Of a DNA stretch of 64,000 bases, positions 14,675 to 53,918 are shown piece by piece. The notes below the pieces were generated by a model. That model saw nothing but the letters and a program-made list of their open reading frames with translations. It did not search any database and was not told the origin of the DNA. Location of the stretch: the NCBI GenBank assembly GCA_016194585.1, contig JACQBG010000041.1, positions 1 to 64,000 of the forward strand. The letters are read 5' to 3'. Origin of the DNA: Gemmatimonadota bacterium (lineage in GTDB: Bacteria > Gemmatimonadota > Gemmatimonadetes > Gemmatimonadales > Gemmatimonadaceae). Numbering within the stretch: the first letter of the stretch is position 1; every line of letters begins with the position of its first letter. Both the position numbers and the translations under genes were made by a program.

Positions 14675-16146
14675 ACCGCCCGACGTCGCGGGTCTCTGGG
14701 TCGATCGCCCAGGTCGGCGATGCCGGCGGCGAGGGGTTCGTCCGCGCGATGGGGCGCAACTTCATCCTCGGCTTGTACGGCGCGCTCCGCAGCATCCGGA
14801 TGTACCCGATCGAGAACTCCGTCGTCCAGAAGTCGCTCGAGGAGCTCACGGCGATCGCCGAGGAGCTGCGGAGCAAGGAGGGGGAGCTCGAGTTCCGCGT
14901 GTCGGGCGAGTTCATCTTCGTGAACTCGACGCGCCTGCGTCTCGACCTCGACAACTACACGACCTTCAGCTACCTGCTCTCGCAGTGCCGGGGGAGCGGC
15001 GTCGGCGTGATCCGCATCGTGTCGCGTCCGGCCGCCCGCGACTGGACGGTGCTGCTCGCGTTCCTCCTGCAGCCGCAGGGCGAGGTGCCGGCCGACCGGT
15101 TCGCGACGCTGCTGCAGCGCCTCGACACCACGGGCGTCACGGCGTTCGAGCTCGCGCCGCCGGTGGAGTCCGAGGACGACGAGAAGCACCGGTCGCAATC
15201 GAAGGAGGCGGCCAAGCGCACCTATGCGCAGTCGGTCGCGGCGACGAAGGAAGTGATGAATTCGGTGCGGCTCGGCCAGAGCCCGAACATCCGCAAGGTG
15301 AAGCGCGTGGTGCAGGGGATCGTCGACCAGATCCTCGCCGACGAGACTTCGCTGGTGGGACTCACCACCATCCGGGACTACGACGACTACACGTTCACGC
15401 ACTCGGTGAACGTGTGCATCTTCGGCGTCGCGCTCGGCCGCCGGCTCGGGCTCACCCGGCTCCAGCTGTACGACCTCGGGCTCGCGGCGCTGTTCCACGA
15501 CATCGGGAAGTCGCGCGTGCCGCTCGCCGTCGTCAACAAGCCGGACCTCCTCACCGACGACGAATGGCGGCTCATCGCGTCGCATCCGTGGATGGGGGTG
15601 CTCGCGCTCTTCCAGCTCAAGGAACAGCAGGAGTTCCCCTATCGCTCGATGATGGTCGCCTACGAGCACCACATGCGGCGCGACGTCACGGGCTATCCGC
15701 GCTCGCTGCGCACCAAGGCGATCGGGTTCTTCAGCAAGATCATCGCCGTGGCCGACGGGTTCGACGCGGCGACGTCGCGCCGCTCGTACCAGACGGAGCC
15801 GATGAACCCCGCGTCGGTGCTCGCCGAGATGCGGGACAATCCCCGGCGCGGCATGGACCCGGTGATCGTGAAGGCGTTCGTGAACCTGCTCGGCATCTAT
15901 CCCGTGGGGACCTTCGTCGTGCTCGACACGTTCGAGCTGGCGATCGTCCACTCGAACAATCCCAACCCCGAGATGCTCTCGCGGCCGATGGCGCTCATCG
16001 TGAGCGACGACCTCGGCAACGTGAAGTTCCCCGGGGAACTCGTCGATCTCGCCGAGCCCGACGAATCGGGGAATTTCCGGCGCACCATCATCAAGACGGC
16101 CGACCCCGAGCGCTATGGCATCCGGGTCGGCGACTACTTCATCTGA
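14671..16146 (+). CDS. HD-GYP-type phosphodiesterase with an N-terminal domain shared with the HEAT protein
   Basis: A 491-residue protein. The C-terminal half is an HD-GYP domain (about 215-400), a family that degrades cyclic di-GMP. Metal and signature residues are present: H244, H276-D277 in FHDIGKSRVP, H305 in ASHPWMG, and EHHMRRDVTGYP (H333-H334, D338, GYP 341-343). The consensus is HHExxDGxGYP, so the E is M and the first G is V. The N-terminal domain (about 25-165) resembles that of the upstream HEAT protein (MYPIENSVVQKSLEEL). A further about 90 residues after the HD-GYP core are unassigned. No membrane segments are seen. Activity on cyclic di-GMP is likely but unproven. Confidence 0.85.
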   Translation: MNRPTSRVSGSIAQVGDAGGEGFVRAMGRNFILGLYGALRSIRMYPIENSVVQKSLEELTAIAEELRSKEGELEFRVSGEFIFVNSTRLRLDLDNYTTFSYLLSQCRGSGVGVIRIVSRPAARDWTVLLAFLLQPQGEVPADRFATLLQRLDTTGVTAFELAPPVESEDDEKHRSQSKEAAKRTYAQSVAATKEVMNSVRLGQSPNIRKVKRVVQGIVDQILADETSLVGLTTIRDYDDYTFTHSVNVCIFGVALGRRLGLTRLQLYDLGLAALFHDIGKSRVPLAVVNKPDLLTDDEWRLIASHPWMGVLALFQLKEQQEFPYRSMMVAYEHHMRRDVTGYPRSLRTKAIGFFSKIIAVADGFDAATSRRSYQTEPMNPASVLAEMRDNPRRGMDPVIVKAFVNLLGIYPVGTFVVLDTFELAIVHSNNPNPEMLSRPMALIVSDDLGNVKFPGELVDLAEPDESGNFRRTIIKTADPERYGIRVGDYFI

Positions 16147-49762: not shown

Positions 49763-50054
49763 GTTCGCTCACCCGCTCGTGTCGCCTCTACAACCGACAG
49801 GATGCACTCAGCATTCGATCGCACGCCAAGCCGCACCAGACCGGACGCCCCGCGAATCGTGGGCGCGTATCGGGCGGCAGCGGCGTGTCCGATCACGCGC
49901 GAGCCGGGGAGCCCGTCCACTTCGAGTCTGCGGCAGGCGGTCGCTCCGCCCAAGCGCGAGCGTCGCCGGCCGTCCAACGACCTCATGTCCAACTCCTGGT
50001 TGGCCGCGCCGGCGTTCGCCGGGTCATGTCGTGCGGCGCACCAGATGGTCATCG

Positions 50055-51671
50055 ATGAAAAGAGAGATCCTGATCAGCGCCACGCAGCGGGAGATCCGCG
50101 TGGCGATTCTGGAGGACGACCAGCTCGTTGAGCTCCAGGTCGACCGCCCCGAAGCGCGCCGCATGGTCGGCGACATCTACTGGGGCAAGGTCGACGCCGT
50201 GCTGCCCGGCATCCAGGCCGCGTTCGTCGACATCGGCACCGAGAAGAGCGCCTTCCTCCATTCCTCCGACCTCGTCTTCGACGAGGACGGCGACGAGGAT
50301 GACGACGACGAGGCCGACGACGACGCCGAGGGTGACGACGAGCAGCCCGAATCGCCCGAGGCCGCCGAGAAGGCCGAGGCCCCCGCGCGCAAGCCGCGTG
50401 GCGGCCGCCGGCGCCGCAAGGAACCGCCGCAGATCCAGGACGTCCTGAAGCGCGGCCAGCAGATCATCGTCCAGGTCTCCAAGGAACCGATCTCCACCAA
50501 GGGGCCGCGCGTCACCGCGCAGGTCTCGCTGGCCGGCCGGTTCGTCGTCTACATGCCCGCCGCGTCACGCGTCGGCGTGAGCCGCAAGATCGGCGAGCGC
50601 GCCGAACGGCAGCGCCTGCGCGAGCAGGTGCAGAAGGTGCTTCCCAAGAACTCGGGGGGCGTCATCGTCCGCACCGTCGGCGAGGACGTCACGCCGGAGA
50701 CGTTCGAGCGGGAGATCACCACGCTCATCAGCCAGTGGAAGCGCATCGAGAAGAAGACGAAGTTCGTCGGCTCGGCGCCCAAGCTGCTCCACCGCGAGAC
50801 GTCGCTCACGCGCGGCATCATCCGCGACCTCTTCAGCACCAAGGTCGACAAGCTCACCGTCGACTCCAAGCAGGTCTACAACGAGATCAGCGAGTACCTC
50901 AAGGCCATCGCGCCCGAGCTCATCGACCGCGTCGTGCTGTACGAGGAGAAGGTGCCGCTGTTCGACAAGGCGGAGATCGAGACCGAGATCCGCGACCTCT
51001 TCAAGCGCCGCTGCGACCTGCCGAGCGGCGGCTACCTGATCATCGAACCCACCGAGGCGCTCGTCTCCATCGACGTCAACTCGGGGCGCTACACGGGCAA
51101 GAAGGACCCGGAGAAGACGAGCCTCCGCACCAACGTCGAGGCGGCCCGTGAGGTGGCCCGACAGCTCCGGTTGCGCGACGTGGGCGGCATCATCGTGTGC
51201 GACTTCATCGACATGGACACGCGGCAGAACCGCGACAAGGTGCTGCAGGAGCTCCGCACGCATCTCGGCCGCGACCGGGCGCGCACGAAGGCGTTCGCCG
51301 TGAGCGACCTCGGCCTCATCGAGATGACGCGCCAGCGGGTGCGGCAGAGCCACCTGCAGCAGATGACGGAGTCGTGCCCGACGTGCCACGGCACGGGGCG
51401 GGTGTTCACGCCGGAGACGATCGTGCGCCGCATGGAACGCTCCGTGCGCCGCATCGCCGTCGACGGGCGCAAGGACAACCTCATCGTGAAGCTGCACCCC
51501 GACACGGCGATGTACCTGCTCGAGAACGAGCGCGACCTCATCAAGAAGCTCGAGAAGGGGCTGGGCTTCTCGCTCGAGACGCGCGACGACCCGCTCCTGC
51601 GCCCCGACGAGTTCAAGCTCGTCGTGAAGGGCGCGGGACGAGACGTCACCCAGCAGTACGCGGTGGCGTAG
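50055..51671 (+). CDS. Ribonuclease E/G family endoribonuclease
   Basis: 538 residues. The N-terminal S1 domain (VGDIYWGKVDAVLPGIQAAFVDIG) is interrupted at about 75-126 by an acidic stretch (DEDGDEDDDDEADDDAEGDDE) and a basic stretch (RKPRGGRRRRKE). The RNase core follows: LTRGIIRDLFSTKVDKLTV, LIIEPTEALVSIDVNSGRYTG, GGIIVCDFIDM (metal-binding aspartates in VSIDVNSG and IVCDFIDM) and CPTCHGTG with the Zn-link cysteines. It stops after the Rng-like core, so no long RNase E scaffold tail exists. ATG at 50055 fits MKREILISAT. It processes rRNA and degrades mRNA. Confidence 0.93.
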   Translation: MKREILISATQREIRVAILEDDQLVELQVDRPEARRMVGDIYWGKVDAVLPGIQAAFVDIGTEKSAFLHSSDLVFDEDGDEDDDDEADDDAEGDDEQPESPEAAEKAEAPARKPRGGRRRRKEPPQIQDVLKRGQQIIVQVSKEPISTKGPRVTAQVSLAGRFVVYMPAASRVGVSRKIGERAERQRLREQVQKVLPKNSGGVIVRTVGEDVTPETFEREITTLISQWKRIEKKTKFVGSAPKLLHRETSLTRGIIRDLFSTKVDKLTVDSKQVYNEISEYLKAIAPELIDRVVLYEEKVPLFDKAEIETEIRDLFKRRCDLPSGGYLIIEPTEALVSIDVNSGRYTGKKDPEKTSLRTNVEAAREVARQLRLRDVGGIIVCDFIDMDTRQNRDKVLQELRTHLGRDRARTKAFAVSDLGLIEMTRQRVRQSHLQQMTESCPTCHGTGRVFTPETIVRRMERSVRRIAVDGRKDNLIVKLHPDTAMYLLENERDLIKKLEKGLGFSLETRDDPLLRPDEFKLVVKGAGRDVTQQYAVA

Positions 51672-51679
51672 GGGAATTC

Positions 51680-51889
51680 AACGACGCCTCAGGTTTGCGC
51701 AGGTACACGAACGACGCCGCAGATTCACGCGGATACGGCAGGAAAGACGGGGGAAACGTGAACGGGGGAACGACACTCGCCGGCCGAGATGTCGTTCCCC
51801 CCTTCAGTTGCGGTTCGACTCGCGCCTGTCGTATCCGCGAAGATCCGCGGCGTCGTTTCGCCGTACCTGCGCACTCCTGAGGCGTCGTT
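51680..51889. repeat. Nested 210-base palindrome (MITE/REP-like element or double terminator)
   Basis: Outer arms of about 63 bases (51680-51742 and 51825-51889) are imperfect inverted copies: AACGACGCCTCAGG with CCTGAGGCGTCGTT, TGCGCAGGTAC with GTACCTGCGCA, and CGCGGATACGGCAGG with CCTGTCGTATCCGCG. An inner perfect 12-base palindrome GGGGGAACGACA / TGTCGTTCCCCC (51764-51775, 51790-51801) encloses CTCG/CGAG. No transposase is present. The left arm's GCCGCAGATTCACGCGGATA resembles dispersed CGCAGATTnACGCGGAT-type repeats of other bacterial genomes. It fills the gap between convergent rne/rng and SPFH genes, and could also stop transcription both ways. Confidence 0.7.
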
Positions 51890-51910
51890 CCGGCCGCGCC
51901 GCCACCCCGC

Positions 51911-53185
51911 TCAGGCCTTCTTCGGCGGCACGATCCCCGACTGCTGCACGAGCTGCGCGGCGATCACGGTCTGGATCACCGACGCCACGTTGTTCGCGGC
52001 GTTCCCCGCCGCCCCGCCTTCCTCGCCGTTCCCCGAGATGGTGATGAGCTTCGCCTCGGCCAGCGCCGCGGCGATCTGCGGCACGATCATCGGGAGCATC
52101 TCGATCTGGCGATAGCGGAAGTAGGCGTCGCCGCCGGCCTTGATCGCGTCGTTCACCTTCTGGATGCTCTCCGCGTTCGCCGACGCCACCGTGCGGATGC
52201 GGATCGCCTCCGCCTCGGCGCCCGCCGTCGCCTCGATCTTCACGCGTTCGGCGTCGGCCCGCGCCTGCGCGATCTGCGTCGCCTCGAGCTCCGCCACGCG
52301 CTGGACGCCCAGCGCCTCCTGCCGCTTGGCTTCGGCGCCGGCGATGATCGCCGCGTTCTGCGCCTTCGTCTGCTCCAGCTCGCGCGTGCGATCGCTGATC
52401 GTGCGCTCGGCCTCGATCTGCGCTTCCTTCGCGCGGCGCGACTGCTGCGCCGACACGATGTCGGCGTTCGCCTGCGCTTCGGCGGCCGACATGCGGCGCC
52501 GGGCGTCGGCGACCTCCGACTGCACCACCTTGATGTTCAGCGAGTTGAAGATCAGCCCGAGGTCGGTGAGCTCGCGCGAACACGCCTTGCGGATGATCAC
52601 GGCGAGCGGATCGTCGTCGTCCTCGATCGGCGTGCCGTCCTCGTTCGTCACGGGGAGCGGCGGCGCGACGACCACCGGGAGCGCGGCCGCGCCGCTCCCG
52701 AGCGCGCGCGTCGCCGTCTTGGCCGAGAACAGCTGGTCGTGCGTGAGCAGGTTCACGGCGCGGCGTCCCGAGCTCGACAGGAGGTCGGTGAGCGTGTTGA
52801 GCTGGTCGTCCGGCGATTTCGAGAAGAAACGGTTGGCGGCCGTCTTGATGAGCGTGTCGCTGTCGCCTACGGACACGATGGCGCTGGCCAGCACCCGCAC
52901 CTTGATCGGCTGGGGCTGCCCGTTCTCGGCGATGTCGGCCGTCTGGTCGGTGATGTCGAGGTCGACGTTGATGACCTTGCTCGAGATCGTCGTGCCGGTG
53001 GTGAGCAGCGGGATCTCCTTCGACTTGCCCGGCCCGCGGTACATCACGGTGTTGCCGTGCAGCCAGCTCACGATGCGGATGGTGCCGGCGTCGACGTTGC
53101 GCAGGAAGCTCGCGACCACCGCGGGGATGAGGATGAACACGGCGAACAGCACGCCGCCGATGACGACCATCTCGTTGATTGGCAT
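51911..53185 (-). CDS. SPFH/flotillin-like membrane protein
   Basis: 424 residues from the ATG at 53185. One N-terminal anchor (MVVIGGVLFAVFILIPAVVA), a SPFH domain (about 30-235: FLRNVDAGTIRIVSWLHGNTV, ELTDLGLIFNSLNIKVV) and a long alanine/glutamate-rich coiled coil (about 240-360: RRRMSAAEAQANADIVSAQQ, ERTISDRTRELEQTKAQNAA). Flotillins assemble membrane microdomains. An acidic loop (EDGTPIEDDDDP) breaks the SPFH domain. The next gene on the strand encodes a NfeD-like partner, the usual flotillin pairing. The frame extends upstream to 53299 without homology. Confidence 0.88.
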   Translation of the reverse strand: MPINEMVVIGGVLFAVFILIPAVVASFLRNVDAGTIRIVSWLHGNTVMYRGPGKSKEIPLLTTGTTISSKVINVDLDITDQTADIAENGQPQPIKVRVLASAIVSVGDSDTLIKTAANRFFSKSPDDQLNTLTDLLSSSGRRAVNLLTHDQLFSAKTATRALGSGAAALPVVVAPPLPVTNEDGTPIEDDDDPLAVIIRKACSRELTDLGLIFNSLNIKVVQSEVADARRRMSAAEAQANADIVSAQQSRRAKEAQIEAERTISDRTRELEQTKAQNAAIIAGAEAKRQEALGVQRVAELEATQIAQARADAERVKIEATAGAEAEAIRIRTVASANAESIQKVNDAIKAGGDAYFRYRQIEMLPMIVPQIAAALAEAKLITISGNGEEGGAAGNAANNVASVIQTVIAAQLVQQSGIVPPKKA

Positions 53186-53216
53186 GAAGGGGATGTAGGG
53201 GAAGGGAAGCGGACGA

Positions 53217-53918
53217 TCAGCGCTGCGGAACCGAGACCGTGCAGCGGCCCCGCGCGGCGTCGACGTCCTCGATGCGCACCGAGTCGCCGGAGCGCACACG
53301 ACGGCCGGCGGCCTTGTCCTCGACGCGCAGCGTCGCGAGACATTGCACCACCTGTCCGTCGACGTCGACGGCGATCAGTCCTTGGCCCTGCGCATCGAAC
53401 GAGGTGACCGCCGTGGCCAGGTCGGTGATGGCGCTCTCGAGCGTCACCAGCGGATTCGACGCGAACCGGAAGAGGAAGCGCCAGAACGGCCCGACGATCA
53501 ACGCCTCGAACAGCACGCCGCCCGCGAGCGCGACGCCGAGGAGCACGACGCCGCCCAGGAAACGGTGCGCCAGCAGCCCGGTCGCCCCGAAGCCCACGAG
53601 CATGCTGAACCAGAGGCGCGGCGAGAGGAGGGTGGCGAACCGGTCAGAGAGCCCCCGCGCGAGGGTTCCGGCGGCGTGCGATCCGGCGTGCCCCGCGTGG
53701 CCGGCGTGGAGGGGGGCCGCGTGCCCGGCGCCGTGCGCGTGGGCTCCCGGCAGGGCGTGGCCGGCGTGTGCGTGGGCGAGGCCCCCGTGCCCTCCGGTGC
53801 CTCCGCCAACGCTGTGGCTGGGCCCGTGGGAGTGTCCACCCCGTGCCCCGAGGCCGCCCAGGGCCATCAGGCCGAGACCGGCACTCCCCAAGACAAGACT
53901 GCTTGTGTAGAGATCCAT
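53217..53918 (-). CDS. NfeD-like membrane protein with a histidine-rich insert
   Basis: 233 residues from the ATG at 53918. Membrane segment 1 (about 5-23), then a His/Gly/Ala-rich loop of about 55 residues (29-81) with 14 histidines in HxH, GHAGH and HAGHA patterns, then two or three membrane segments (about 97-150) and a C-terminal OB-fold like that of NfeD (about 160-233: GQGLIAVDVDGQVVQCLATL, AGRRVRSGDSVRIEDVD). It lies 31 bases upstream of the SPFH gene on the same strand. NfeD proteins associate with flotillins. The His-rich loop may bind Zn, Ni or Cu; this is inference. Divergent from rplU. Confidence 0.78.
   Translation of the reverse strand: MDLYTSSLVLGSAGLGLMALGGLGARGGHSHGPSHSVGGGTGGHGGLAHAHAGHALPGAHAHGAGHAAPLHAGHAGHAGSHAAGTLARGLSDRFATLLSPRLWFSMLVGFGATGLLAHRFLGGVVLLGVALAGGVLFEALIVGPFWRFLFRFASNPLVTLESAITDLATAVTSFDAQGQGLIAVDVDGQVVQCLATLRVEDKAAGRRVRSGDSVRIEDVDAARGRCTVSVPQR

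Follow-up and report, generated by a model that had tools for sequence, protein, structure and literature searches.

A gene-less palindrome at 51680-51889 of a Gemmatimonadota contig and its probable kinship with GxxExxY-associated repeats

A nested palindrome at 51680-51889 of the stretch of DNA analysed here (64,000 nucleotides of a Gemmatimonadota genome, hereafter the window) very probably belongs to a family of palindromic repeats associated with GxxExxY genes. These elements flank GxxExxY genes, are dispersed through the genomes that carry them and are present in a lineage-specific manner. The explanation that best covers all of the observations, and which is probably correct, is that the window element is a gene-less (non-autonomous-like) copy of an element that, in its complete form, has a gene for a GxxExxY PD-(D/E)XK nuclease enclosed by the same arms. 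GxxExxY proteins occur in many phyla and, to our knowledge, have no assigned role.

Structure and setting of the palindrome

A preliminary description of this DNA had reported long imperfect outer arms, a perfect 12-bp stem and a further 4-bp stem, nested in a palindrome between convergent genes, and every one of these parts was found where it had been placed. The element as a whole (51680-51889, no strand assigned) is defined by arm complementarity, copies, fold-back score and DNA fold. Its left outer arm, AACGACGCCTCAGGTTTGCGCAGGTAC (51680-51706, plus strand), is 27 nt long and 93% complementary to the 27-nt right outer arm with which it pairs (51863-51889, minus strand). Inside these lie two 33-nt inner arms, the left, AACGACGCCGCAGATTCACGCGGATACGGCAGG, at 51710-51742 on the plus strand and the right at 51825-51857 on the minus strand, which are 85% complementary; the left one is of an arm family common to a GxxExxY element on contig C1 of the same genome. 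A pair of inward-facing CRCRGAT units, CGCAGAT TCA CGCGGAT, spaced by 10 bp, is found at 51718-51734 (plus strand) and has its counterpart in the other arm, CGCGGAT CTT CGCGGAT, at 51833-51849 (minus strand). The core is formed by GGGGGAACGACA (51764-51775, plus strand) and, as written on the plus strand, TGTCGTTCCCCC (51790-51801, minus strand), which make a perfect 12-bp stem. Between them is a variable apex (51776-51789, no strand assigned) consisting of a 4-bp stem (CTCG at 51776-51779 with CGAG at 51785-51788), a five-base loop and one extra A. The outer and inner arms are 71-78% identical to one another, being diverged copies of one AACGACGCCKCAGRT-type unit string, so that a tandem of units makes up each arm. 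What characterises the GxxExxY-associated palindromes is a pair of inverted arms whose CRCRGAT units point inward at a spacing of 9-10 bp, and the window element has this structure.

The element occupies the whole gap between the stop codon of an RNase E/G gene at 51671 and the end of a convergent ORF at 51911. The RNase E/G gene is rng-type (50049-51671, plus strand; PF10150, 334 bits), 50049 being only the start of the stretch scanned. The convergent ORF (51911-53299, minus strand, with 53299 as a provisional start) looks flotillin/SPFH-like by eye and gave no Pfam match.

The palindrome is far beyond chance. Its fold-back local-alignment score is 54 at centre 51783, whereas approximately 3000 random centres in the window average 13.4 ± 3.0 and never exceed 28. 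Moreover, as single-stranded DNA the element folds at -90.2 kcal/mol, whereas shuffles reach -46.3 ± 3.6 (z -12.3), and the corresponding RNA fold has a z of -13.4. A search of Rfam with the element returned nothing meaningful.

Copies in the genome and among relatives

The arms had been taken for a family of dispersed CGCAGATT-type repeats, and copies were indeed found in the organism's own genome. With the 221-bp element as query there were 65 alignments in its assembly (3.34 Mb, 50 contigs). A single copy without relatives, the outcome that the preliminary description had set against its own reading, is not the case, as approximately 20 related gene-less palindromes are present, mainly at gene 3′ ends. 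Several further full-length palindromes are found on contigs C46, C16, C3 and C23, together with many partial ones. The copies are modular. Their outer arms are AACGACGCC(T/G)CAGAT..CGCAGGTAC or CCACGGAT..CACGGAT strings, and their core is a GGGGGAACGAC..GTCGTTCCCCC hairpin of near-fixed length, mostly 37 nt, with a variable apex; around this hairpin the arms are built of CRCRGAT units approximately 10 bp apart. Arms differ strongly between copies yet match within one copy. A miniature mobile element or a cruciform-forming site, both proposed beforehand, fits these dispersed unit-array copies and is supported by them in kind.

The core pattern was matched 17 times in the own genome (one or two of these places, e.g. 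on C50, are without arms), 7 times in the relative G011, 5 in G017 and 3 in G012, with few or none in the other relatives, whilst the reversed control pattern gave 0 matches in the same genomes. Base pairs flanking the fixed part of the core covary: 24 double-change cells were counted, compared to a value of 13.4 in shuffles (0 of 500); the central ten core pairs are fixed by the search pattern and are thus uninformative in this respect. At two loci of the own genome (L015, C44:5421-5608, and L027, C16:90011) the arms lie beside or around AT-rich interiors in place of the usual core. A third (L013, C41:13399-13463) is a half element with left arms only, adjoining what by eye is a tRNA-like gene on the minus strand.

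Full-length elements contain a gene. At C1:34200-34706 of the same genome the arm family of the window element (the B arms) encloses a GxxExxY ORF, which scores 121.8 bits against TIGR04256 (cut-off 35) and 128.7 bits against PF13366 (cut-off 22). By these curated cut-offs the gene is an ordinary member of GxxExxY / PDDEXK_3, with a nuclease fold of the Cas4/RecB/Hjc type. A second GxxExxY gene, at C15:30798, has the CCACGGAT-type arms seen in other gene-less copies. The gene-bearing copy on C1 is without GGGGG core halves; such halves adjoin the GxxExxY gene in several relatives (L051, L052 and L054). The arms that flank GxxExxY in the relatives vary between loci, and in most loci the two arms match. 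One GxxExxY element of G012 (L213, contig C19) is directly followed by a gene-less element with other arms and the same core hairpin. In that genome too, downstream of a GxxExxY gene (L064, C34, approximately 15131-15501), gene-less elements stand in tandem with a 118-bp period and four consecutive unit-pair matches.

Comparison of gene junctions points to gain. Of 18 genomes of the genus, 16 have tal and pyk overlapping or no more than tens of bases apart, and a GxxExxY element separates these genes only in the own genome and in G017, the nearest sampled relative. Between these two genomes the units have changed on both arms together (CGCAGAT..CGCGGAT versus CGCAGGT..CGCAGGT), arm complementarity being kept while the arm sequences diverge. 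An ancestral insertion lost elsewhere could in principle account for the tal-pyk element, though it needs more events. At the rng junction, an element of the window type was absent in the 16 relatives read, and therefore the window copy is lineage-specific under the present sampling. In two relatives, G006 and G008, rng apparently faces the convergent gene seen in the window, and a plain hairpin stands in place of the element; in most other relatives rng is followed by rplU. Just after rng in G012 and G015 (L223 and L224), at the rng-rplU junction, there are nested palindromes of other unit strings (GAGCGACGGGTGACGAGCG; GTCTAGGGTCTA).

Orientation of the neighbouring genes, assigned by a simple GC3 frame test for 33 gene-less elements (a few of them a core hairpin without arms), gave 21 with convergent, 11 with tandem and 1 with divergent neighbours. 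This placement suggests that the elements are tolerated at gene 3′ ends and may also act as a two-way transcription barrier; for the window locus itself we consider a barrier role an even call. The same convergent bias, with only one divergent case, would also be expected of a selected bidirectional terminator or mRNA-stabilising hairpin that is now immobile and whose old duplications were kept for RNA structure. The covarying core stem, the very stable RNA fold and the plain hairpin at the same junction in two relatives sit well with this. However, no U-tract or intrinsic terminator site was found in 51400-52200, and the nested arms, the CRCRGAT units and the nuclease gene in other copies would all be superfluous. 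Moreover, selected pairing on the sense strand predicts that G-U mispairs outnumber A-C, and there was no such excess in the arms of 55 gene-bearing elements (65 G-U versus 73 A-C) or in 14 elements from relatives (19 versus 18). The arm symmetry is therefore better explained at the DNA level. On the whole, a terminator or hairpin kept for its RNA structure is an unlikely explanation of the element. For the symmetry we infer a DNA-level cause, be it protein sites in the two halves, template switching or a combination of these.

The GxxExxY nuclease and its association with the repeats

Within the catalytic D..ExK of the GxxExxY family, the D, E and K are invariant or nearly so, which argues that the protein matters. 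GxxExxY has no sequence relatives in the PDB. An AlphaFold2 model from a 45-sequence input (pLDDT 96.3, pTM 0.87) found its closest solved fold in SSO0001 (Foldseek E 7e-4; VIA Z 10.0, rmsd 3.2 over 94 residues), which we take to be a Cas4 protein. Other matches were AF1548 (Z 8.6) and the Holliday-junction resolvase Hjc (Z 7.4, where a VIA Z below 8 may reflect merely a common arrangement), and PADLOC gave weak Cas4b matches. The small Cas4/Hjc-like core predicted by the model is compatible with branched or folded DNA as substrate.

One scan of 84,980 species genomes gave 80 GxxExxY loci, which, by record titles, came from Pseudomonadota, Bacteroidota, Acidobacteriota, Chloroflexota, Planctomycetota, Nitrospirota, Gemmatimonadota and others. 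Arms were scored as the best inverted repeat between the 250 nt before and the 250 nt after the gene, with a threshold of at least 18. This score was reached in 70% of 77 loci, compared to 15% of mismatched loci, 15% of segments taken 1.2 kb further out and 5% of shuffles; approximately 30% of GxxExxY loci thus fall under the threshold, and at a Treponema locus no inverted arms were seen. Inward CRCDGAT units numbered 272 in 150 GxxExxY flanks versus approximately 18 expected from distant segments, with successive units 9 or 10 bp apart, one helical turn, in 96 cases. Carrier genomes from other phyla contain up to 150 matches to CRCRGATNNNCRCRGAT, with 131, 133 and 150 in three Luteimonas, 72 in a Nitrospirae MAG and 68 in a Chloracidobacterium MAG. 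The control pattern is near zero in the same genomes, and a few carriers are almost without CRCRGATNNNCRCRGAT matches. Some carriers hold 50-150 unit pairs, and gene-less palindromes are directly visible in the copy-rich carriers of other phyla. No GxxExxY was found in phages.

In the class to which the window belongs, 13 of 245 genomes have at least 5 matches to the unit pattern. These make up 11 of the 71 GxxExxY-positive genomes and 2 of the 174 negative ones (Fisher p = 3e-5, phylogeny ignored); G169 and G258 are unit-rich yet without GxxExxY.

In Luteimonas padinae (G272, L299, approximately 2504-2673) a pair of the GTAGGAGC...-type, resembling a classical REP dimer, sits at the apex of a CRCRGAT palindrome, one repeat type nested inside another. 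In several Xanthomonadales (L084, L087, L089, L098 and L134) a GxxExxY element lies just upstream of a gene that by eye is biotin-carboxylase-like, and at L134 the outer arm, again by eye, matches the start of that gene.

The unit type follows the cargo. At least 2 inward CRCRGA units were found in 57% of PF13366 loci but in 7% of PF05635 loci (relatives, p=2e-4). Loci of PF05635 (23S_rRNA_IVP) nevertheless have arms, the inverted-repeat score being at least 18 in 75% of 28 versus 17% cross-locus and 39% further out. In the relatives and the own genome (L254-L282, L074-L076) these are inverted arms of other short tandem units, such as GGAAGCC, GAGAGTTGA and GGTGTTA, which suggests that PF05635 elements are a second, parallel class.

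That the IVS-type four-helix-bundle family in the relatives also lies within inverted unit arms raises a further explanation, in which the elements are IVS-like, neutral since RNase III would excise their folded RNA, spread via RNA or by chance, and carry the ORF as incidental cargo. In the IVS of Coxiella 23S rRNA, the loop closed by a terminal stem contains the ORF, and IVSs are regarded as selfish (PMC4990558). Our elements share this plan of a small ORF (S23p in the 23S rRNA case) looped out by a long terminal stem, and one is inserted between the tightly spaced tal and pyk. However, no copy read here is within rRNA; the window copy, though a terminal stem is present, and the other dispersed gene-less copies lie between protein genes. 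The cargo is a nuclease with conserved residues, and the arms are phased DNA unit arrays in which G-U does not exceed A-C. An IVS-like origin is accordingly improbable. Ahead of its ORF the Coxiella IVS carries GACAGAT three times in tandem, heptamers that are CRCRGAT-like, maybe by coincidence (PMC4990558).

Relation to known mobile repeats and a possible mode of spread

Like MITEs, the elements are short (200 bp for the gene-less form), dispersed, lineage-specific in presence and bounded by inverted ends. They could be classical MITEs, in which the arms serve as terminal inverted repeats for a DDE transposase whose gene lies at another locus and GxxExxY is a passenger. Target-site duplications, which the preliminary description had proposed to look for, gave no signal: the mean boundary repeat was 1.30 versus 1.28 in mismatched pairs for 23 elements with motif-defined ends, although old insertions could have lost them. 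Moreover, the arms vary strongly among copies while matching within each, the fold-back here spans the whole element, and what the matching arms enclose is a GxxExxY gene, not an end-linked transposase. A passenger would not retain one unit type across phyla. We consider that there is little likelihood of a MITE origin.

The closest parallel in organisation is the REP/BIME/REPIN system with RAYT (TnpA-REP, 'REPtrons'). RAYT genes are flanked by REPs (PMC2817692), and published REPs measure 20-40 bp and are tagged on one side by GTAG or CGTC (PMC3733652). Both systems comprise many-copy extragenic palindromes with a nuclease gene between two inverted copies, gene-less copies far exceed gene-bearing ones, and most are downstream of genes. 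In contrast, the enzyme here is the PD-(D/E)XK GxxExxY and not a Y1/HUH RAYT, and the elements are CRCRGAT arrays of approximately 100-250 bp, in the window a nested 210-bp one, and not a GTAG- or CGTC-tagged stem of 20-40 bp. No match to Y1_Tnp/RAYT (PF01797) was obtained in the own genome (98% complete), whereas control genomes were positive. The REP-associated transposase suggested as a check is therefore missing, and the proposal of a REP-type repeat is not supported, in view of this, of the length of approximately 210 bp, of arms without the GTAG-tagged REP form and of the lack of a TSD signal. Mobilisation as REP/BIME by RAYT, a Y1 tyrosine transposase, was rejected because PF01797 is absent and the size and ends are unlike REP; we regard it as extremely improbable.

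We thus favour a gene-less copy of a GxxExxY element, MITE/REPIN-like in nature and now maybe a transcript barrier. Whether the GxxExxY nuclease drives the mobilisation is an even call. In such a scheme the nuclease would recognise the helically phased unit arrays in each arm and act on the folded-back element, either a cruciform or a hairpin on single-stranded DNA. Its nick would start a repair or template-switch event that could both copy the element elsewhere and homogenise its two arms, and gene-less copies would be mobilised in trans. Survivors would lie mainly at the 3′ ends of genes, positions in which the core hairpin may be tolerated or useful as a two-way transcription barrier. No young insertion with clean ends was found among the copies.

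No description of GxxExxY embedded in unit-array palindromes, or of gene-less derivatives, was found in the open-access literature searched, where mentions of GxxExxY are incidental and its association, or that of PF13366, with the repeat units is not described. We tentatively propose, at somewhat less than even confidence, an unnamed, phylum-spanning class of mobile palindromes. In these a minimal PD-(D/E)XK protein, GxxExxY, would recognise phased 10-bp arrays and spread gene-bearing and gene-less fold-backs without TSD, the arms being kept matched by DNA template switching; in a parallel class a four-helix-bundle S23/IVP gene would lie in arms of other units.

CRCRGAT-type repeats occur in high copy in the same kinds of genomes as GxxExxY and have so far been without explanation. 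Their link would assign to each a testable function, with the nuclease as engine and the repeats as substrate. If true, this would be a nuclease-based analogue of the REP/RAYT system, and it would explain widespread intergenic palindromes that may also reshape transcript ends.
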